Shown piece by piece: positions 17,947 through 62,882 of a stretch of 64,000 bases of DNA; within the stretch, counting starts at the first letter, position 1, and each line of letters starts with the position of its first letter. The position numbers were made by a program, and so were the translations under genes. This stretch comes from Desulfonatronovibrio hydrogenovorans DSM 9292 (GTDB lineage Bacteria > Desulfobacterota > Desulfovibrionia > Desulfovibrionales > Desulfonatronovibrionaceae). Below the pieces are notes generated by a model. The model worked only from the letters and a program-made list of their open reading frames with translations, had not been told where the DNA came from and did no database searches. The stretch is from assembly GCF_000686525.1 (NCBI RefSeq), contig NZ_JMKT01000008.1, positions 248,001-312,000 on the forward strand, given 5' to 3'.

Positions 17947-18753
17947 ATGGCCCAGAACCTTTCGGATAAAGTAAAGAGTTTTTTTCTGGCCAAATCATCC
18001 AGGAATGGCCGATCCCTTTCCGGAGATTTTGACTTGCTGGAAATGCCGGTGGAAGCGGTTCTTGCCTACTGGCTGTCAGTCAAAAGGGTTCTGGAGGCCA
18101 AAGGTCAGTCATTTATTGCAGCTGAAAGGGAGAAAACCAGCGAGCCTTTTGTAAGTCACCTGCTGGGTCTTTTGCAGTCTTCCTTAAGTCCTGAGGATAT
18201 CCAGCGTTTCGGGGCCATAAAAAAGCAGGCCATTTTAAGAGACCTGCAGCGCAAGTTCATCCTCATGTCCATATCCATCCTGGGTATGGCCACCAACGAG
18301 AACCCCCAAAAGGTCCTCATCCGGATTATCTCCAAGTTTCCTATTTCCCCAATATATGAAAAACAGGTCTTTGAGGCTGCATCAGAGGTTCTGAAAAAAA
18401 TGGAAGACGGGGATCTGAACCGGGAAAAGTTCCTGAACATTGATCACAGGATGAAAATCGAGTCCCTGATCCTCAACCTGGTCATCTATAATATGCTGGC
18501 CAGACGCATGGGAAGAAGGGAGATTGGAGATTTTATCGGGCATATCCGTTCATTTTATTTTGCCGAAGGCCTCTCCCTGATAGTTGACGGGTTTGAATAT
18601 GATTTCATCAAGCACAGGCTCAATCTGCAGAAAAAGGAAATCCTTGAACTCACCGAATCCAAGATGGACATGTCCCTGCACATTTGTTCAGGCATCAAAT
18701 CCGGCCTTAGCTATGACGACCTGCAGCTGGTCGGGGCATCCTACCTCATGTAG
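17947..18753 (+). CDS. Unrecognised helical cytoplasmic protein
   Basis: 268 residues, not recognised. There is no signal peptide, membrane segment or cysteine cluster; the sequence is strongly helical and charged, with a basic middle part (FGAIKKQAILRDLQRKF) and a DRRMK/HRMKIES-like stretch. The ribosome binding site is modest (GGGAA). It follows the metK hairpin by 18 bp and its 3' end overlaps the 3' end of echF, which is on the other strand, by eight bases. Coding is supported by a full-length clean frame with typical composition and no better frame on either strand. Function unknown. Confidence 0.75.
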   Translation: MAQNLSDKVKSFFLAKSSRNGRSLSGDFDLLEMPVEAVLAYWLSVKRVLEAKGQSFIAAEREKTSEPFVSHLLGLLQSSLSPEDIQRFGAIKKQAILRDLQRKFILMSISILGMATNENPQKVLIRIISKFPISPIYEKQVFEAASEVLKKMEDGDLNREKFLNIDHRMKIESLILNLVIYNMLARRMGRREIGDFIGHIRSFYFAEGLSLIVDGFEYDFIKHRLNLQKKEILELTESKMDMSLHICSGIKSGLSYDDLQLVGASYLM

Positions 18754-19102
18754 CTTTACTTTTTAACTTTTTTTCCACTTTGCTTTTCTGAGTGAACTTC
18801 CTGGGAACAGGATAGTGCTGCGTTTTTTCCTGAGTCAAACAACTGGTCGGGCAGAACTGGACACAGGTGCCGCAATATACGCAGGCCAAAGGGTCCAGCT
18901 CCCAGAAGCCCTCCTTCTTGCTGACAGTTATGCAGCCTACAGGGCATTTTCTGGCACATATGGAACACAGGATGCATTCCTGAGGATCAATGCTGATCTT
19001 CCCCCTGGCCTTGTCAAAAGGATTGCGCCTGGTCTTGGGATATGGTCTGGTGGCCTTTTTGCGGGTAAAGTTCTTGAGTATTACCGGAGTAAAATTAAAC
19101 AT
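18746..19102 (-). CDS. echF: Ech hydrogenase ferredoxin subunit EchF
   Basis: 118 residues with two [4Fe-4S] motifs, CILCSICARKCPVGCI and CVYCGTCVQFCPTSCL, like NuoI and the EchF/HycF subunits that pass electrons between ferredoxin and the hydrogenase core. The C-terminus is a Lys-rich tail. It is the last gene of an ech operon whose order exactly matches echABCDEF, 12 bp after echE. Its stop region overlaps the convergent unknown gene by eight bases. Confidence 0.9.
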   Translation of the reverse strand: MFNFTPVILKNFTRKKATRPYPKTRRNPFDKARGKISIDPQECILCSICARKCPVGCITVSKKEGFWELDPLACVYCGTCVQFCPTSCLTQEKTQHYPVPRKFTQKSKVEKKLKSKAT

Positions 19103-19114
19103 GACACACCTGAT

Positions 19115-20191
19115 CTATCTTTCAGTACAGCTTATACACGGATCAATGGACATAAGGATAACCGGGGCTGATGCCAGTTCCTGGCCGGGGAGCATTTTGA
19201 GCAGGGCCGGGGTGTTGGCAAAGGTTGGGGTTCTTATTCTGAGCCTGTCCAGGTTTTTGGTTCCATTGGCCAGAATATAATGGACCAGCTCCCCTCTGGG
19301 CTGTTCTGTCCTGCTGACTGCTTCGCCCTGGGGATTCCCTTTGATTTTTACAGCGATCTCAGTGTCAGGAAGTTTGGAAATGGCCTGCCGGACCAGATCC
19401 ATGGCCTGCAGGACTTCCCTGAATCTGACCCTGGTTCTGGCCAGGCAGTCGCCCTCGGTTTCTACTACCGGCTCGAATTCGAGCTCACCATATGCTGCAT
19501 ATCCGGTCATTCTTGTGTCCTGGGCAATATTGCTGGCTCTGAGCATGGGGCCTACACAACCCAGTTCATAAGCCTCCTTCTGGGTCAGCACAGCAATGCC
19601 TTTGGTCCGCTTGAGCACAGTATAATCGTTGAAAAACACCTTTTGCAGCTCTAAGAAATCCTTTTCCACCCCTTTTAGAGTGGTAAGGATCTGTCTGCAC
19701 TGATCCTGATCAAGGTCGTATCTGGTGCCGCCGATTATATTTACCGAGATAATGACCCGGTTCCCGGCAGTGGCTTCCTGGAGGTCCATTATTTTTTCCC
19801 GGATCCTCCAGCACTGCATGAACAGGCTTTCAAAACCAAAGGCATCGGCAAACAGACCCAGCCAGAGTAAATGGCTGTGCATCCGGTGCAGTTCAGACCA
19901 GATCACCCGCAGAAATTTGGCTCTGGGCGGAATTTCGGCCTGATAAAGATCTTCCAGGGCCTGGACATAGGTCAGGGCCTGGATACAGCTGCATATTCCA
20001 CAGACCCTTTCCACCACCTGGACCATCTGTCTGAAATCTTTTTTGGTAACCAGGGTTTCCAGCCCGCGGTGCACATAGCCGAAACCAGGGAGAACCTCAG
20101 TTATGATTTCGTCCTCAATGGTCAGCTTCAGGTGAATGGGTTCAGGCAGGACCGGATGCTGCGGTCCAAAGGGGATAATTGTTCTGGCCAT
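19115..20191 (-). CDS. echE: Ech [NiFe]-hydrogenase large subunit EchE
   Basis: 358 residues, related to NuoD but retaining all four Ni-Fe site cysteines: RVCGIC (C64, C67) and DPCISC (C352, C355). This identifies a group 4 [NiFe] hydrogenase catalytic subunit and not a complex I subunit, where those cysteines are lost. PFGPQHPVLPEP and FGYVHRGLE are typical of the family. The protein stops three residues after the last cysteine (TER), so there is no C-terminal peptide for a maturation protease to remove, as described for Ech and CooH large subunits. The start abuts the echD stop. Confidence 0.93.
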   Translation of the reverse strand: MARTIIPFGPQHPVLPEPIHLKLTIEDEIITEVLPGFGYVHRGLETLVTKKDFRQMVQVVERVCGICSCIQALTYVQALEDLYQAEIPPRAKFLRVIWSELHRMHSHLLWLGLFADAFGFESLFMQCWRIREKIMDLQEATAGNRVIISVNIIGGTRYDLDQDQCRQILTTLKGVEKDFLELQKVFFNDYTVLKRTKGIAVLTQKEAYELGCVGPMLRASNIAQDTRMTGYAAYGELEFEPVVETEGDCLARTRVRFREVLQAMDLVRQAISKLPDTEIAVKIKGNPQGEAVSRTEQPRGELVHYILANGTKNLDRLRIRTPTFANTPALLKMLPGQELASAPVILMSIDPCISCTER

Positions 20192-20578
20192 CTATTCTTC
20201 CTCCGGCAGGGCTGTTTTATCCTTGACTGTTATTTTGCCGTAAGGAAGGTTCCTGGTCTCCTCCTCCAGGAACATATGCCCCTGGTAGTTCACAGCCAGG
20301 TCATCAAAGGCGATGTTGTAAAAATCCTGGATTTCATTTTCTGCAAGAAATGCGGCCAGAAAAATGTCGGTGATGCTTTTGAATTTTTCCTCCCTGGGGC
20401 CTCTGATCCTCAGCCCTCGGAGTTCAAGCTCCCGGTCAAACAGGTAAATGAGCTCCAGTTCTTGTCCGAAGTCCAGGGCAGTGATGCCCACCAGCCTGAA
20501 GTCATTTTTTTTAAATTCCTGAACCTGTGCCCGGAGTTCTTCAGCTGGAATTGAAACAGTATACTCAAGTGTCATCAT
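20192..20578 (-). CDS. echD: Ech hydrogenase subunit EchD (NuoC-like)
   Basis: 128 residues, matching the small size of EchD. It is related to the N-terminal part of NuoC, a soluble structural subunit beside the large subunit. The visible family pattern is weak apart from the ITALDFGQELELIYLFDR strand-loop; the assignment rests mainly on its place between echC and echE and on size. Start ATGATGA overlaps the echC stop by four bases. Confidence 0.82.
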   Translation of the reverse strand: MMTLEYTVSIPAEELRAQVQEFKKNDFRLVGITALDFGQELELIYLFDRELELRGLRIRGPREEKFKSITDIFLAAFLAENEIQDFYNIAFDDLAVNYQGHMFLEEETRNLPYGKITVKDKTALPEEE

Positions 20579-21030
20579 GGTCTGCCAATGGTTGAAAATT
20601 TCTTGACCGCCTCCAGGGCACCGTCGATTATGGATTCCGGTTTGGGCGGACAGCCTGGAACATATATATCCACTGGAATAACTTTGTCAGCACCACCCAC
20701 GACATTGTAGCAGTCTTTGAATATTCCGCCGCTGCCTGCGCAGGAACCGATACTGACCACAACCTTGGGGTTGGGGATCTGGGCATAGATGTTTTTCAGG
20801 ACATGCTTGTTGCGGTGGTTGACGGTACCAGTGACCAGCAGAATGTCCGCATGTTTGGGATTGCCTGCGTTGATGATTCCGAATCTCTCCAGGTCATAGA
20901 CAGGAGTAAGACAGGCCCAGGTTTCAATGTCGCATCCATTGCAGCTGCCGCAGTCCAAATGGATCATCCATGGGGATTTCTCCCTGGATTTCTGGAGGAT
21001 ACGGGTTGTCAGATTCTGGAAAAAACTCAT
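20575..21030 (-). CDS. echC: Ech [NiFe]-hydrogenase small subunit EchC
   Basis: 151 residues from ATG 21030; a GTG at 21039 is possible but forms part of the GGTGGA ribosome binding site. The NuoB-like small subunit carries the proximal [4Fe-4S] cluster: cysteines in DCGSCNGCDIE (C27, C30, C33), GSCAGSGG (C97) and VPGCPPKPE (C127). It sits between membrane and catalytic subunits and takes electrons from EchF towards the Ni-Fe site. Four-base overlap with echD. Confidence 0.92.
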   Translation of the reverse strand: MSFFQNLTTRILQKSREKSPWMIHLDCGSCNGCDIETWACLTPVYDLERFGIINAGNPKHADILLVTGTVNHRNKHVLKNIYAQIPNPKVVVSIGSCAGSGGIFKDCYNVVGGADKVIPVDIYVPGCPPKPESIIDGALEAVKKFSTIGRP

Positions 21031-21075
21031 TAGTTCCACCCCACGGCGGATATGCTGAAAAAATCTCAGCTGGTG

Positions 21076-21933
21076 TTAAAAGGTCAGTATGATAATGTAA
21101 TTGATCAGGATCAGACCCAGACCCATGGGCCAGACATAGGCAATCATCCATCTCCAGGTTGATCTGGCAGCCAGGTTGTCAATAATGATTTCAGCCAGAT
21201 AGGTAATGGTCAGAAAAAGGGCAATGGCCAGGAACCCGGTAGACCAGAACAGGGCAAACACCCCCAGGATGAGAATGACTTCAAACCAGTGGGCGATTTC
21301 GACCATGGCCAGCTGCGGACCGGAGAAATCAGTCAAGGACCCTTTTACGATTTCCTGGTGCCCATGGTGGGACGCGGAAATGTCAAAGGGAGACTTGCGC
21401 AGCTTGATGGTCAGGGCGAAACCCAGGGCCACATAGACCAGGGGAAGGCTGAAGAGAAGCGGCTCTTCCCAGGCGAGGATGCCGGAGATATTAAAAGTCC
21501 CGGTGACCAGAAAAAAGCCGACAAAACTCAAAAGAAGCAGGGGCTCGTAGGTTAATACCTGGATAAGCTCGCGCTGGGCTCCGACCTGGGAGTAAGGCGA
21601 AGGAACAGACATGGCGGCCATGATAAAAGAGACAGCTCCAATGGTCAAAATAAAGAAGATCAGCAGCAGGTCAGTCTGGAGAAAAAACAGAAAAACAGCA
21701 GCCATGGAAGACAATAAGTACACGGTCACGCAGATCAGCTGTCTGGGGTTGACGGTCCGGTTTTCATTGCCCAGAAGTTTTATGATGTCGAAAAATGGCT
21801 GCCAGACAGGCGGCCCTGTCCGGCCTTGAAACCAGGCGGTCAGTTTGCGGTCGATGCCGCTGATAATGGCCCCGGCTGCAGGGGCCAGGATGGTTGCGGC
21901 AAGGGCGAAGAAAAAGCTGGACATACTGATCAT
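21076..21933 (-). CDS. echB: Ech hydrogenase membrane subunit EchB (NuoH-like)
   Basis: 285 residues, about eight transmembrane helices, NuoH/HycD family. Typical features are the GRTGPPVWQPFFDIIKLLGNE segment with Arg/Pro before the second helix, a KLRKSPFDISASHHGHQE loop on the cytoplasmic side and conserved Glu residues inside the membrane. The subunit anchors the soluble arm and links electron transfer to ion movement. Its ATG overlaps the echA stop (ATGA). Confidence 0.92.
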   Translation of the reverse strand: MISMSSFFFALAATILAPAAGAIISGIDRKLTAWFQGRTGPPVWQPFFDIIKLLGNENRTVNPRQLICVTVYLLSSMAAVFLFFLQTDLLLIFFILTIGAVSFIMAAMSVPSPYSQVGAQRELIQVLTYEPLLLLSFVGFFLVTGTFNISGILAWEEPLLFSLPLVYVALGFALTIKLRKSPFDISASHHGHQEIVKGSLTDFSGPQLAMVEIAHWFEVILILGVFALFWSTGFLAIALFLTITYLAEIIIDNLAARSTWRWMIAYVWPMGLGLILINYIIILTF

Positions 21934-23831
21934 AATGACCCAACCACCAGTAAAATGATGAATCCCAGGGCAGTCAAGGTTGCCACCAGGGATATCCGTT
22001 CTTCGGGCAGATGGTTCTTAAAGTAATAGTTTTTTGAGCTGAAGGGAATAAATTTGCCCAGAGGGTCCACAAACCCTGGTTCTTTATCCTCGCAGGAGAG
22101 TCCTGCGTAATAAGGTCCTGTAAAGACAGGTTTATGTCTCAGGGAGTATTTGTAAACCAGCCCCAGCACAACCAGGCCGATGACCAGAAATGCCGGATAA
22201 ACCATAAAGGCCCCGGCGTGTCCGGTCAGGCTGTCAATGCCGGGTGCCCCAAACAGAGGCAGGATCAGCGGGGTAACTAGAAAGCTGTAAACCGGGATAA
22301 TGGCAAAACTGAGGACTAGGGTCAGTATGGCCAGGCCGGATAGAGGACCAGAAATGAAAAGAGACAGGGCTGGTTTTGGGCTGCCTGCAGAGCATTCTTG
22401 AGAGTTGAGCAGCAGTCCTGCCCATCTGGTCCAGTAGACAACACTCAATGCGCTCCCCAGGGCCAGCATCAGCACAATGATTGGGAGTTCAGCTGCGGCG
22501 TGTACAGCCATCCACTTGCTGACCAGAGCTCCAAATGGAGGAAGGAACATGGAAACCATGCCCAGGACCATGAGTATGCCTAGCCCTGGATACTTGCCCA
22601 TAAGTCCCCACATGTCCTCAATACTTTTACTTTTAATCATCTGTTCAATATGCCCCACGCCCATGAACAGCAGACCTTTGGCCAGGGCGTGAAACAGGAT
22701 CAGAAGCATTGCTGCGCCATAGGCCTGGGGTGTCCCGATGCCGGCGCAGGCAATGATGAGTCCCAAGCTGCCGATGGTGGAATAGGCCAGTATTTTTTTG
22801 GCGTTATTCTGAGTCAGGGCCAGGACAGAAGTACTGATGAAGGTCAGAGCTCCGATTATTGACAGATAAAGTGCCAGGGACGTCCCTGCATAAGCTGGCG
22901 TCAGTTTTAAAATGAGAAATACTCCAGCATTGACCATGGTTGAAGAGTGCAGGAGGGCTGAAACAGGAGCCGGAGCCACCATGGCACCGGTCAGCCAGGA
23001 GTGAAAGGGAAGCTGGGCTGATTTGGTGAAGGCTGCCAGGCACAACAGGGCCACAGGAAGCATAAGAATATCCATGGAGCCCAGCCCGGTCAGCCCGGTT
23101 ATCTCCAGAGGCAGGCCACGGATAAAGAGCAGGTAGATGGCCCAGATAAAAAATACCCCGCCCAGAAGATTCATCCACAACGCTTTGATGGCACTTGCAA
23201 GGGCCTGGGCAGAACCATCATGAGCTATGAGCACGAAAGAGCAAAGGGTGGTTAACTCCCAGAAGAAAAACATCCATAAAAGATTGTTGCTGAGGATCAA
23301 GCCGTTCATGGCCCCTAAAAACAGGATCAGGAAGAAAAAAAAGCCTGCCTGGCTCAAAGAGGAGGTTTTATAGGTTCTGGAGTGGACCTTCATGTATTCG
23401 GTGGCATAGATTGCAATGAGAGAGCCCACCACGCAGACGATGATGATCATCATCAGGCCGAGTTGGTCGGCAGCCAGGGAAGCTTGAATGGGCAGTCCAT
23501 TCTGGGCAGTGGTTTTGATGAGGACCAGGGGCAGGATCTGCAGAAACACCAGGATCGCAACCAGCCTGTTTCTTTGCTTCAAACCGATGCAAAGGATGAT
23601 TCCCAGGAGAATGAAGTCGGCCCAGGTCAGGATATGGTGCCAGTCTAAAGGGGCGGATGAAGGTTCAAAGGCAAAGGGTCCTGAGGCCAGCATCAGCAGG
23701 GACGCTGTTCCCAGGGCTGCTGCTGTGCCTGCAATGACAGCCCTGCGAAATGTATCGTTGCTGATCAGCACTGCCGGGGCGATGAAAAAAGGCAAAAGGA
23801 TTACCAGAGCCGCCAAAGAATGAATATTCAT
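21930..23831 (-). CDS. echA: Ech hydrogenase ion-translocating subunit EchA (NuoL-like)
   Basis: 633 residues, at least fourteen transmembrane helices, Mrp/NuoL antiporter-like family. Family blocks: SLSQAGFFFFLILFLGAMNG, FFFWELTTLCSFVLIAHDG (with the membrane Glu), FTKSAQLPFHSWLTGAM with the conserved Lys, ALLHSSTMVNAGVFLI with its His, and AKKILAYSTIGSLGLI. It is the presumed proton or sodium channel of the hydrogenase and the first gene of echABCDEF. No strong ribosome binding site is seen before ATG 23831, and a strong terminator of the preceding operon ends only about 25 bp upstream. Confidence 0.92.
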   Translation of the reverse strand: MNIHSLAALVILLPFFIAPAVLISNDTFRRAVIAGTAAALGTASLLMLASGPFAFEPSSAPLDWHHILTWADFILLGIILCIGLKQRNRLVAILVFLQILPLVLIKTTAQNGLPIQASLAADQLGLMMIIIVCVVGSLIAIYATEYMKVHSRTYKTSSLSQAGFFFFLILFLGAMNGLILSNNLLWMFFFWELTTLCSFVLIAHDGSAQALASAIKALWMNLLGGVFFIWAIYLLFIRGLPLEITGLTGLGSMDILMLPVALLCLAAFTKSAQLPFHSWLTGAMVAPAPVSALLHSSTMVNAGVFLILKLTPAYAGTSLALYLSIIGALTFISTSVLALTQNNAKKILAYSTIGSLGLIIACAGIGTPQAYGAAMLLILFHALAKGLLFMGVGHIEQMIKSKSIEDMWGLMGKYPGLGILMVLGMVSMFLPPFGALVSKWMAVHAAAELPIIVLMLALGSALSVVYWTRWAGLLLNSQECSAGSPKPALSLFISGPLSGLAILTLVLSFAIIPVYSFLVTPLILPLFGAPGIDSLTGHAGAFMVYPAFLVIGLVVLGLVYKYSLRHKPVFTGPYYAGLSCEDKEPGFVDPLGKFIPFSSKNYYFKNHLPEERISLVATLTALGFIILLVVGSL

Positions 23832-23965: not shown

Positions 23966-25987
23966 TTACGCCCTTCTCATTTCCTCAATAATATTCTTGA
24001 GTTCTCCTGCCAGGGCGGCCAGATCTGAAATGGCCTTGGCCGACTGGTTCATTGCCTCACTGGTTTCAGAAGAGATTCTGCTGATATCTTCCACGCTTTT
24101 GTTGATTTCTTCGCTGGCTGAAGACTGCTCTTCTGCTGCAGAGGCAATGGAGTTTATCTGGCTTGAAGAAGACTCCACAAGCCTGACGATTTCGCTCAGC
24201 TGCTTGCCTGATTCATTGGACTGTTTGGTGGCTCCCTTGACCGAGTCCACGGTCTGGTCCACGCTGGTGACGTTTCGTTGTACCTCTTCCTGAATGCCCT
24301 TGATATACCTGCCTACTTCATTGGTGGCGTTCATGGTCTTTTCAGCCAGTTTTCTGACTTCATCAGCCACAACTGCAAATCCACGCCCTGCTTCGCCGGC
24401 CCTGGCAGCCTCAATGGCTGCGTTGAGAGCCAGGAGATTAGTCTGGTCGGCAATGTCTTCAATCACGTTCATTATCTTGCCGATTCCTTCGGCCTGATCT
24501 CCCAGGGCAGTGATCTGTTTTTTCAGGCCCAGGGCGTTTCTCTGGACATCAGCAATGGCCTTTACAGCATCGCGGACGGTCTGGGCTCCGGACTGGGCCG
24601 TCATCCTGACCTGATCCGAGGCATCAGCAGCCTGGGATGCGTTTTTGGCCACTTCCAGGACTGTTGCGTTCATCTGTTCCATGGAGGATGCGGTTGAAGC
24701 AGCCATGTCTCTTTGCTCCTCAGCTCCGCGACTGGCCTGTTCCACCTGGGCCGCCAGTTCTTCTGATGCCGAAGAAACCTGCTCAGCAACCGAGTCCGCT
24801 CTCTGGGCCGATGCTTCGATCATCTTGTTTTTGGCTTCTATCTGGCTCTGCTGGTCTTTGATATCGGTCAGGTCGGTATACAGGACAAAGGCTCCGATGA
24901 GCTGTTCATCGAGATCATAAAGGGGCGCACAGTCCACCCGGATGAAGATTTTTTTGCCGGCTTTGTTGACCAGTTCGATTTCCTGATTGAGGACCGCCTT
25001 TTTTGTGGAGAGGACCTTGTCAGTAATTGTTTCCCGGTCATCTCCGTAAACCAGTCTGGACGGGGATTTACCAATGAATTGCTGTCCATCGTCATGGCCC
25101 AGAAGATCCAGAGTGGCATTGTTGATAAATGAAATTTTTCCCTTGGTATCGCAGACAAAGCAGGGGGTGGTCATACTCCCCAGGATGCCCTTGGAAAACC
25201 CAAGCTCCTTTTTGAGGTTGCCCACCATGATTCCCAGGTGTTCGGACAGGCTGCCCAGTTCGTCCTGCTTGGTGAGGTGGAAATCAGCAGAAAAGTCTCC
25301 ATTGGCCACTTTTTGAGTAGCCTGGTCGATCTTAACCACTGGGGAGATTATTTCCCTGCGCATGAACAGGTACACGCTGACTACCAGGATAATTATTCCG
25401 GCCAGGATCATAAGACTGGTATAAAGGGAATTCTCGCGCATTCTGGTCAGGGTGTCTGTAACATCCTGGATTACGACCATCTTGCCCAGGATGGGCTGGC
25501 TTGACCCGTGACAATGGTAACAGGCCGGTTCATTGGGCACTGAGCTGATGCTGACAAAGGCGTCTCTGTTTCCCAGCCTGAAAAAGCCGCTTTCCCGGAT
25601 ATCGTTTTGCAGAGCCCTGGCTCCGATCTGGCGGATTTCCCCGTGTTCCACTGAAGTGTCAAAGTCCTTTCTGACTGTATTTAGTTCAGTGCTGTAGGTG
25701 ATATTTCCCCGAAAATCAGTCAGATAAGCTCTGGTAGTATCGTATCTGTCTGAAAGAGCAGCGAATTCGTCCCTGGTGCCCTGGTCGTCGCCGATAACCA
25801 TGGGCCGTTCAATGGTGGATTTTAAAAGTTCTGTGAATCTTTCCACTTCCTGGGCAACCTGATCCTGCATCAGATTCTTCTGCCACAGAACCATGACAAA
25901 GATTATGACAGAGAAGATGCCCAGAGAAATAAGGGCGATACTGATACCGATCTTGTATCCGATATTGGCAGTGATTTTGTTCAACAT
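23966..25987 (-). CDS. Methyl-accepting chemotaxis protein with periplasmic c-haem motif
   Basis: 673 residues. Transmembrane helices at about 14-35 and 185-208 enclose a periplasmic sensor containing C156-Y-H-C159-H160, a c-type haem attachment motif, followed by [16 protein letters not shown]; this resembles DUF3365/Tll0287-type sensors and the haem-containing DcrA receptor of Desulfovibrio. Then come HAMP (about 205-258), PAS (about 268-378) and the signalling coiled coil, with tip sequence [20 protein letters not shown]. There is no C-terminal CheR-docking pentapeptide. AAGGAGGT gives a very strong start. The gene is 17 bp downstream of a tetrahaem cytochrome gene on the same strand, so redox or gas sensing is likely. 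Confidence 0.9.
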
Positions 25988-26004: not shown

Positions 26005-26469
26005 CTAATGGGCGCCGCTATAGATCAGTGGCCTGAAACCGAAAGCTTCATTGCGTTCTTCCGTGTGACAGGTAAGACAGTCCTCAATTATGGGGAGCCG
26101 TTCAATAACATCGGGCATTCCGCCGGTTTCCACGTGCTCCCTGCCTGGTCCGTGACATGTTTCACAGCCCACATCAGAAAGCTCCGGGGTTGATTCATAG
26201 GATACAAACCCCCCCTGGTTATATCCTGTAGTATGGCAGCCATAACATTCTCTGAGTTCCTCATCGGTCAGTTTAGGCCGCATAACAGAAATGCTTTCCC
26301 AGGACTTGGCCTTTTTGGAGTAGTTCATGAAGTTTTCATACTCATAAAAGTGACAGCGGCCGCAGGCCTCAGATCCTACATAATTGCCGGTAGCCCAGGC
26401 CTGGTAGGTCATCAAGGCAGCCAGGCACAGAATCGTTAAGACCGGGAAAGCAATAAACCTGTTCAACAT
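26005..26469 (-). CDS. Exported tetrahaem cytochrome c
   Basis: 154 residues from ATG 26469 (GGAGAGGTG upstream; a longer frame to 26532 lacks support). A signal peptide (about 1-26, ending QAWA) is followed by four CXXCH motifs: CGRCH, CYGCH, CETCH and CLTCH. The pattern [19 protein letters not shown] is typical of the cytochrome c554-like/multihaem family, with extra His residues available as distal ligands. It is a periplasmic electron carrier. It is the first gene of a bicistronic unit with the haem-type chemoreceptor, suggesting that it passes electrons to, or reports redox state to, the receptor. Confidence 0.9.
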
Positions 26470-26595: not shown

Positions 26596-26615
26596 TATGT
26601 GAAGCCCTTCACATA
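26596..26615. promoter_or_regulatory. CRP/FNR-family operator palindrome
   Basis: A perfect 20-bp inverted repeat, TATGTGAAG-CC-CTTCACATA, containing TGTGA-N6-TCACA exactly as in the E. coli CRP consensus. In Desulfovibrio the CRP/FNR-family regulator HcpR is reported to use a CRP-like site. It lies 127 bp before the tetrahaem cytochrome start and 244 bp before the first hsp20, so the cytochrome-chemoreceptor operon is the nearer target. Confidence 0.65.
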
Positions 26616-26798
26616 GTCTATGGGTTTTGTCAATGGACTGCAGCTCTAAGACTGGCTGAAGTCCATAGGTTCAATAAGATATTTCGGCTGCTTGAGCAGA
26701 AAACTTAGGCTTGAGATCTGGGAAGTTTAAGTGGCTGGATCGAGCTGATCAGCACAAGACCGACTGCGGCAAAATCCGGGCAGGTAAAGGACCCTGTC

Positions 26799-26858: not shown

Positions 26859-27272
26859 ATGGTAATTGATTTCAGCAGTTTTTATAACTTGCCGAGGCAG
26901 CTGGACAGGTTTTTTGACGAAGCCTGGAGGCCGTCCATGATCAGCCAGAGGAGAAATGCGTATCCCCCTGTGAATATTAGCGAGGACAAGGCGGCCATTT
27001 ATGTCTATTCCGAGATACCCGGAGTGGATATCAAGGATGTGGAGATAACCTTAAGTGACGGCAGTCTGGTCATCAAGGGAAACAGGAAGCACGGAACAGG
27101 CAGTTACTACCGACAGGAGCGGCCCACCGGACTTTTTCAGAGAGTTGTCAACCTGAATGTACCTATTGCTGCGGACAAGGTTGAAGCCAGAATGAAGAAC
27201 GGAGTCCTTGAAGTGGTAATCCCCAAGGCTGATGAAGCCATACCAAAGAAAATCAGCATTAAGGCTGAGTAA
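26859..27272 (+). CDS. Hsp20-family small heat-shock protein (first of three)
   Basis: 137 residues from ATG 26859, set by GGAGGTGAT just upstream; an upstream extension is not conserved. The N-terminus (DFSSFYNLPRQLDRFFDEAW) is of the usual sHSP type, followed by the alpha-crystallin domain (about 40-130) with YPPVNISEDKAAIYVYSEIP, GVDIKDVEITL, GSLVIKGNRK and the ARMKNGVLEVVIPK strand. The C-terminus ends in a short KKISIKAE. These chaperones hold unfolded proteins as oligomers in the cytoplasm. It is followed 14 bp later by a second hsp20. Confidence 0.93.
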   Translation: MVIDFSSFYNLPRQLDRFFDEAWRPSMISQRRNAYPPVNISEDKAAIYVYSEIPGVDIKDVEITLSDGSLVIKGNRKHGTGSYYRQERPTGLFQRVVNLNVPIAADKVEARMKNGVLEVVIPKADEAIPKKISIKAE

Positions 27273-28262: not shown

Positions 28263-28282
28263 AGGAACAACCTCTTGTTCCT
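28263..28282. other. Small hairpin before the hsp20 terminator
   Basis: AGGAACAA-CCTC-TTGTTCCT, perfect 8-bp stem with a four-base loop, just ahead of the main terminator; probably part of the 3' end structure of the hsp20 transcript. Confidence 0.5.
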
Positions 28283-28287
28283 GTTTC

Positions 28288-28333
28288 AAAAAAGTAACGG
28301 GGTATCCCATTTGGGATACCCCGTTACTTTTTT
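28288..28333. terminator. Bidirectional intrinsic terminator after the hsp20 cluster
   Basis: A perfect 21-bp stem with a four-base ATTT loop; the arms begin and end in A6/T6, so it works in both directions. It separates the plus-strand hsp20 operon from the convergent small gene at 28369-28731. Confidence 0.92.
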
Positions 28334-28368: not shown

Positions 28369-28731
28369 CTATTTCTTGAAAAGAGAGCCCAGGTCGGTGA
28401 TCTTTCCACCTTCCTTTCCGGCCAGGTTGCCCAGATTCTTGAGGTCGCTGGCGCTGGATATGGTCAGATTGCTAGAAGCCTCCAGGTACTTGTTTTTCAG
28501 GTCCTCTGGGAGGTTTTTGAACACATAAAGAATATGCCGTTCTTCCACTTCACCGGTCAATTCATTATCGATGGGATAGCCAAAGGGCAGAAGAAGCATC
28601 TGTACTCCCCCCTGCTGGGTGGGGACCATCTGCAGCATGGCCAGGTCAGTAAGCTTTTTGTCCTGCTCCTGCCACTTGCCAAGGACCATATCTCCGGTGA
28701 CCAGTTTTACCAGCCTGATATCATAAGCCAT
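28369..28731 (-). CDS. Small protein of Sm-like appearance
   Basis: 120 residues from ATG 28731, chosen because AAGGAG lies eight bases upstream (a 12-residue upstream extension is unlikely). The N-terminal half (IRLVKLVTGDMVLGKWQEQD) has the look of LSm/Sm-like small beta-barrels found in phage and bacterial proteins of unknown role; the C-terminal half is Lys/Ser-rich and probably flexible. No signal peptide. It stands alone between the hsp20 terminator and the divergent cvpA. The Sm-like reading is tentative. Confidence 0.7.
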   Translation of the reverse strand: MAYDIRLVKLVTGDMVLGKWQEQDKKLTDLAMLQMVPTQQGGVQMLLLPFGYPIDNELTGEVEERHILYVFKNLPEDLKNKYLEASSNLTISSASDLKNLGNLAGKEGGKITDLGSLFKK

Positions 28732-28880
28732 AATTACACTCCTTGTGAGTTTTGCTCGAGTTTGCATGAAGATTAAACCGTTGAACTTAATTACTGATTA
28801 ATATACTGTCAAGAAAGGCGAGGCAGGCGCATTTCCGTGATCTGTATCAGCTCCTTTGCAGTCCAGGGAAAGGGAATAAT

Positions 28881-61220: not shown

Positions 61221-61414
61221 ATAAGGTGTTAGAGAGAGTCAGTCAAGCTGGACCAGCAGGAGATGCCCAGGATATCCCCCAGAAATTTCCTGTCAGGATT
61301 AAAAACAGCTTGATTTGTCGTGCTAAAAGGTTCAAAGTCGTTTCACGGATCTGTTTCAACATTATGTTGTGAATTATGTATCAATCTGGCGAAGGCTTTA
61401 AAAATCAGCATGTT

Positions 61415-61460: not shown

Positions 61461-62882
61461 ATGGAACAAAAAAACACTTTGGATTCAGCAGGTGAAACAG
61501 TCATGGTCAGGGGGCTTTTCCCCGCAGGAGTGCCTTTTGGCGGGATTCTGGATGAAATTCCGCTGGGTGCTGCTGTAATGGACCTGAAACGCAGGGTAGT
61601 GCTGATGAACAGGGCCCTGACAGCCCTGACCGGCTATGATCAGGCAGAAGCCAGGGGGATTCACTGCTCCAATATCCTGCGTTCCAGCATGTGCCTTCAG
61701 CAGTGTCCCCTTAATGGGGGTGACTGTAATGAGTATGCCTTTGTTCAGAGCAATATTATAAACAGATCCAGGGAGAGGATTCCGGTCAGAATATCTGCGT
61801 CCCCCATCCATGATCTTGAAGGACGCAGGGCTGGATATTTGAGCCTGGTGGAGGACCTCAGATCCCAGGAAAAGATGGACTGGAAATCTTCTCATAGCAC
61901 CAATTTCGGAAGCCTCATCGGAAGGAGTCCGCAAATTGAAAAAATATTCAGCATCCTGCCCATGGTAGCTCAGACCGATTCCTCCATTCTGATAACAGGG
62001 GAGAGCGGCACTGGCAAGGATGTTGTTGCTGAAGCCATCCACCTGGCCTCTGACCGAGCCAAAGGGCCGTTTATTAAAGTTAATTGTGCAGCCCTTCCGG
62101 AAACCCTTCTTGAGTCTGAGCTGTTTGGGCATCAGAAAGGAGCTTTTACCGGGGCCGCTGAAAACAAGCCCGGCCGGTTCAAGCTTGCTCACAATGGTAC
62201 GGTTTTTCTGACCGAGGTCGGTGATCTGCCCATGGGCCTGCAAAGCAAGCTGCTGACCTTTCTGGACGACAAGGTCATCTTCCCTCTGGGCAGCACCAAA
62301 GGGGTCAAGGTCAACGTCCGAATCATTGCCGCCACCTTGAGGCCGTTGGAGCAGATGGTCCGGGAGGGACTTTTCAGGAGTGATCTTCTGTTCCGGCTTA
62401 ACGTGGTCCGGCTGCACCTTCCGCCTTTGAGGGAAAGGGAGGGGGATATCAGGCTGCTGATGGATCAGATGCTCAGTACCATCTCCAGACAATTCAGAAA
62501 GAACATCCGGGGGGTATCAGAGGACGCCCTTTCCATGCTCCTTAATCATGATTATCCCGGCAACATCCGCGAGCTGAAGAACATTGTCGAATATGCGGTC
62601 AATGTCTGCCAGTCGGACATGGTCCAGGTTTCTCACCTGCCGGAGTACGTGTTTGAAGACGGCCTCAGGCAGAAGCAGGCAGCCAAACTGTCCATACCGG
62701 TGCCATCCTCCCTTGGCCAGGCCAGGTCCGATTCCAGGGGATGTACCTGGGTGGACATGGAAAAAAAGATGATTCTTGAAGCCCTGGTGGCAGCCAAGGG
62801 CAAGAAGAGTAAGGCAGCAGACATCCTGGGCTGGGGCAGAAGTACCTTGTGGCGTAAAATGAAAAAATTCGGACTGGAATAA
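61461..62882 (+). CDS. PAS-AAA+-Fis regulator of sigma-54 type with altered ATPase motifs
   Basis: 473 residues. A PAS domain (about 28-130) has a cysteine cluster C69, C78, C82, C89 (CSNILRSSMCLQQCPLNGGD). The AAA+ domain (about 149-380) has an intact Walker A (GESGTGKD, 180-187) and GAFTGA (228-233), but Walker B reads TVFLTEVGD with Thr251 in place of the metal-site Asp, and sensor I reads AATLRPL with Leu in place of Asn. A Fis-type HTH ends the protein (KAADILGWGRSTLWRKMKKF). It is followed 2 bp later by a NifX-like gene. Such changes would impair ATP hydrolysis in a standard activator; it may work as a repressor or within a mixed hexamer. Confidence 0.9.
   Translation: MEQKNTLDSAGETVMVRGLFPAGVPFGGILDEIPLGAAVMDLKRRVVLMNRALTALTGYDQAEARGIHCSNILRSSMCLQQCPLNGGDCNEYAFVQSNIINRSRERIPVRISASPIHDLEGRRAGYLSLVEDLRSQEKMDWKSSHSTNFGSLIGRSPQIEKIFSILPMVAQTDSSILITGESGTGKDVVAEAIHLASDRAKGPFIKVNCAALPETLLESELFGHQKGAFTGAAENKPGRFKLAHNGTVFLTEVGDLPMGLQSKLLTFLDDKVIFPLGSTKGVKVNVRIIAATLRPLEQMVREGLFRSDLLFRLNVVRLHLPPLREREGDIRLLMDQMLSTISRQFRKNIRGVSEDALSMLLNHDYPGNIRELKNIVEYAVNVCQSDMVQVSHLPEYVFEDGLRQKQAAKLSIPVPSSLGQARSDSRGCTWVDMEKKMILEALVAAKGKKSKAADILGWGRSTLWRKMKKFGLE

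Follow-up and report, generated by a model that had tools for sequence, protein, structure and literature searches.

The palindrome analysed here resembles two described kinds of operator most closely, the Rex operator (ROP) of Gram-positives and Desulfovibrio (TTGTGAA-N4-TTCACAA) and the HcpR/HcpR1 sites of Desulfovibrio (wTGTGA-N6-TCACAw), and Rex and HcpR1-type sites are nearly identical to each other (PMC5701242). In D. vulgaris, sat is repressed by Rex and the repression is relieved by NADH (PMC7531388), while footprinted Rex operators with G+C-rich centres, e.g. TTGTGACCTGCTTCACAT, are known from Streptomyces avermitilis (PMC5355995). For HcpR, replacement of Arg180 by Ser or Pro has been tied to FNR-like TTGAC-N4-GTCAA sites, as opposed to TGTGA-N6-TCACA in Desulfovibrio (Rodionov et al., PMC545781, PMC1274295). 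The core consensus of the E. coli CRP site is also identical to the palindrome. Among the gene products, the closest described relatives are haem-c methyl-accepting receptors such as DcrA and the periplasmic haem-c sensors GSU0935 and GSU0582 (PMC3460858); literature on chemoreceptors of the genus Desulfonatronovibrio was not found.

In the 64,000-nucleotide stretch of Desulfonatronovibrio hydrogenovorans DNA that was analysed (the window), the palindrome TATGTGAAGCCCTTCACATA lies between genes for a cytochrome and a haem receptor on one side and hsp20 genes on the other (Table 1), a divergent arrangement that agrees with the original prediction. That prediction had also described a perfect 20-bp inverted repeat with CRP half-sites. 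The exact TGTGA-N6-TCACA half-sites are present (26598-26613), but only the arms of 9 bp are exact inverted repeats and the central CC is unpaired.

Table 1. Features at and around the palindrome (window coordinates)
Feature	Position	Strand	Remarks
Inverted repeat TATGTGAAG-CC-CTTCACATA, candidate operator	26596..26615	.	Rex-type TTGTGAA-N4-TTCACAA with 2 mismatches
TTGACA, -35-like element	26628..26633	-	spaced exactly 12 bp from the palindrome, on its upstream side as the cytochrome gene is read; shared by G000, G002 and G004
c554-type tetrahaem c-type cytochrome	26005..26469	-	154 aa, signal peptide, four CXXCH
Methyl-accepting chemotaxis receptor	23966..25987	-	673 aa; HAMP, PAS, MCP signal; one CXXCH (C156)
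First of three hsp20 genes	26859..27272	+	other side of the palindrome

The likely true start of the cytochrome gene is the one at 26469, behind the ribosome site GGAGAGGTGA. Since the single CXXCH of the receptor sits between two N-terminal hydrophobic segments, the protein resembles GSU0935/GSU0582 and DcrA in carrying this motif in a predicted periplasmic sensor region and is likely to be a periplasmic haem-c sensor; in contrast to those receptors, it is paired with a gene for a tetrahaem c554-type cytochrome and has a palindrome at the head of the pair. The receptor gene is followed by a six-gene operon for an Ech-type energy-converting hydrogenase (18746-23831), the large subunit of which retains both CxxC nickel-ligand motifs (CGICSC and CISC). 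An operon running on into these hydrogenase genes was considered and rejected: in G002 and G003 the receptor gene is not followed by the hydrogenase genes, and the conserved unit therefore consists of cytochrome and receptor. On the hsp20 side, a region near the gene start with TTGACW is conserved separately from the palindrome, which is therefore not needed to explain it. Further along, a perfect inverted repeat with 24-bp arms and a 2-nt centre (28263-28312) separates the hsp20 cluster from a convergent gene at 28369-28767 and is probably a bidirectional terminator.

Orthologous intergenic regions were compared within the genus Desulfonatronovibrio, with G000 denoting the present genome. Orthologous sites with exact half-sites were found in G004 (TATGTGAAGCACTTCACAAA) and G002 (TATGTGAATGCGATCACAAG), and the corresponding region of G003 contained a degenerate version only (TTTGTGAAATTTAATACAAA). 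The composite element TTGACA-N12-TATGTGAA-N5-TCACA stands ahead of the same cytochrome/receptor pair in G002 and G004, at a distance from the cytochrome start codon that varies by species between 67 and 254 bp. In the alignment, which was anchored on the palindrome, 13/20 palindrome bases and 6/6 bases of TTGACA were identical in all three genomes, compared to 5/114 flanking bases, and the latter value is at the random level. No such site was detected at the orthologous gene outside the genus, Halodesulfovibrio included. This pattern indicates that the element is a functional part of the cytochrome promoter. The palindrome accompanies the cytochrome/receptor operon in the relatives and was therefore assigned to it; the earlier claim that it is regulatory, CRP/HcpR1-like in consensus and linked to this operon is thus borne out.

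The most likely reader of the site is Rex, and we give a somewhat better than even chance to the palindrome being an NADH-responsive Rex operator over the cytochrome/haem-receptor promoter. Its sequence TGTGAA-GGGC-TTCACA matches the Rex half-sites with an N4 centre, the two mismatches to the 18-mer being outer ones, and the likeness to ROP extends from the half-sites to their spacing and their placement around the core promoter. Rex itself is encoded on contig C8 (C8:472843; 282 bits against the NCBIfam Rex equivalog NF003993, cut-off 217), and rex was found in 5/6 genomes of the genus. As in described ROP systems, a Rex-like site stands at the start of rex itself (TTGTTAATAATTTCACTA, with related sites in all five species), and such sites also accompany energy genes, among them sat and those for ATP synthase: a genus-conserved site lies at about -79 of sat, sat sites were seen across the order, and further Rex-like sites stand ahead of atpFFH, atpIBE, adk and the rsbRD-dsrM operon (dsrMKJOP).

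For scoring, a Rex matrix was derived from 20 sites at sat, rex and apsAB, with no site from the cytochrome locus among them, and was applied with the central four bases either masked or included. With the centre masked, positions 26597-26614 gave the top score in the window (18.8 bits, next 13.8), compared to 18.1 bits for the genome's own sat site, and this score corresponds to p = 1.8e-7 per position or ~0.5 expected sites per genome; the training sites at sat and rex had been selected for resembling a Rex consensus, so that the test is supportive rather than independent proof. Inclusion of the centre lowered the score to 8.9 bits, versus 16-24 for the training sites, because the local Rex sites have A+T-rich centres, whereas those of all three orthologous palindromes are G+C-rich (GGGC, GCAC and TGCG). 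Considering the G+C-rich centres of the S. avermitilis operators, this feature weakens the case for Rex without excluding it.

Several additional Rex-related features were noted. A second, divergent Rex-like protein is encoded in G000 (C12:205121-205669), which is 32% identical to Rex and without a match in the other five genomes of the genus that were searched; as a reader of the palindrome this protein (C12:205583) is unlikely, being unmatched in the site-keeping G002 and G004 (G004 only 77% complete). The Rex-like site TTGTGAATTATGTATCAA (window 61367-61384, 17.6 bits with the full matrix) lies immediately ahead of the gene for a PAS/sigma-54 activator (61461-62882), and the strong Rex-like site TAGTGAAATATTTAACAA behind a TTGACA promoter heads a gene for a predicted small membrane protein (MLVELLRDMFSSTTQGYFGVTGIYVYFVAIVAAAIYRIKEGMKEGHH; L103:3034-3219, G000:C8:613433).

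The centre of the putative operator lies ~28 bp past the first base of TTGACA and the palindrome begins ~19 bp downstream of the same base; with TTGACA as the -35 box, it would cover the -10 region and the start, which is the position of a repressor. A simple promoter scan found no -10 element, nor was there a convincing hexamer 16-18 bp from TTGACA. The downstream -10 candidates at +22 (CATAAT, TATACA) were rejected, since G002 has not conserved them and they do not suit class II activator geometry (-41.5). The simplest model is NADH-relieved repression by Rex, in which binding, direction of control and response to NADH are all inferred. A protein, likely Rex, would bind where the operator overlies the cytochrome/haem-receptor promoter, and at low NADH/NAD+ it would block RNA polymerase. 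A rise in NADH, with reducing equivalents in excess and acceptor in short supply, would cause Rex to leave, upon which the cytochrome and the haem-c redox receptor would be made, alongside expression of sat, ATP synthase, adk and dsrMKJOP. The mechanism would most likely be ordinary and the target mildly new, somewhat unexpected for a known kind of operator; a cytochrome with a haem-c chemoreceptor was not found as a Rex target in the Rex literature examined.

The original prediction proposed HcpR or another member of the CRP/FNR family as the reader, which would link the operon to nitrosative stress. The half-sites and their spacing are exactly those of the published HcpR1 site TGTGA-N6-TCACA (PMC5701242) and the Desulfovibrio HcpR consensus (PMC545781), which belong to sulfate reducers of the same order, but the regulators of this genome point elsewhere. 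Profile searches of the 98.9% complete genome recovered only two canonical CRP/FNR regulators, HcpR and CooA, and found neither a TGTGA-reading CRP protein nor, in contrast to E. coli, a CRP orthologue whose recognition helix reads R-E-x-x-x-R. The hcpR gene, adjacent to and divergent from hcp, encodes the recognition helix IPETLSR; Pro rather than Arg occupies the equivalent of position 180 in this genome and four congeners (helix GTIPETLSRVIRKM). The box adjoining hcpR at the hcpR/hcp promoter is TTGACYTARGTCAA, the same intergenic region contains TTGACTTAGGTCAA, and the TTGAC-N4-GTCAA box occurs likewise in the four congeners with hcp, whereas TGTGA-N6-TCACA is absent between hcpR and hcp at <=2 mismatches. 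Unlike Desulfovibrio, this genus thus has the FNR-like class of HcpR, and a TGTGA-reading HcpR1 was not found. The gene for CooA stands beside cooC and the TGTCGG-type box TGTCGGGTTGCCGACA, and the palindrome differs from the CooA site TGTCGGC-N2-GCCGACA. Based on recognition helix and own boxes, neither HcpR nor CooA should read TGTGA-N6-TCACA, and both were rejected together with CRP. The genome scan also returned no second exact copy of the motif, at nitrosative genes or elsewhere, and the nitrosative-stress regulon is accordingly not upheld; we regard a reader from this family as very improbable. Because the HcpR of this genus falls in the other class, TGTGA-N6-TCACA in sulfate reducers should not be assigned to HcpR or CRP before the recognition helix of the regulator has been checked. 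A possible, if tentative, alternative is that another dimeric, genus-specific regulator reads the operator, which may be shared with the dsrAB promoter (TTGACA-spaced TGTGTGAA...TCACAA). In its favour, G+C-rich centres set all three orthologous palindromes apart from the local Rex sites. At <=1 mismatch, TTGACA-N12-TATGTGAA occurs at two places in the genome, the cytochrome promoter and one ahead of a gene that its sequence suggests to be dsrA; the latter match needed one mismatch, and since chance alone should give ~1 match per genome, the link between both promoters is suggestive only. The sequence TTTGTGTGAAAAATCACAA at the dsrA promoter is identical in four species, and the dsrA element gives a poor Rex score and a poor fit to the local Rex sites. 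On the other hand, no candidate gene for this regulator was found, and the two promoters differ by 2 bp in the position of the right half-site. It is rather doubtful that one genus-specific regulator, distinct from Rex, CRP and HcpR, controls both dsrAB and the haem-c receptor operon via a TTGACA-spaced TGTGAA...TCACA; if true, it would couple the level of sulfite reductase to redox taxis. Independently of this, four species share TTGACA-N11-TTGTGTGAAAAATCACAA at ~150 bp ahead of dsrA (G000:C11:200754-200788, L191; also L190, L193 and L195), and with 19 consecutive identical bases among them the element is clearly conserved and a candidate dsrAB operator.

Two further readings would do without a DNA-binding protein. 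A functionless chance palindrome fits the counts across the genome: exact TGTGA-N6-TCACA occurs once in the whole 2.94 Mb (16 contigs, 98.9% complete), where ~2.6 copies are expected from base composition, and the motif alone is not enriched and fits chance. The window contains one copy versus 0.06 expected (4e-4 in the 389-bp intergenic region) and also holds further 9-bp inverted repeats. The palindrome is raised above chance because the same promoter keeps the site in three species while the flanks have been randomised, and we consider this reading extremely improbable. The other reading, an RNA hairpin in the 5' leader acting in attenuation or mRNA stability, is in keeping with the G000 and G004 copies, which fold as short hairpins (-7.5 kcal/mol), but G002 retains the half-sites and loses inner pairs (5 core pairs only, -5 kcal/mol), so that pairing is not conserved across the three genomes. 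It is the identity of the half-sites that is conserved, not compensatory pairing; the constant spacing to TTGACA points to DNA, and a terminator-like site is absent. A hairpin was consequently rejected as very improbable.

If the palindrome is indeed a Rex operator, an operon for a chemoreceptor with covalent haem would be placed under the NADH sensor of sulfate activation, ATP synthase and the membrane complex of sulfite reduction. Its physiological meaning would then be a redox taxis tuned to the energy state, with the swimming direction of the cell adjusted by its redox charge.
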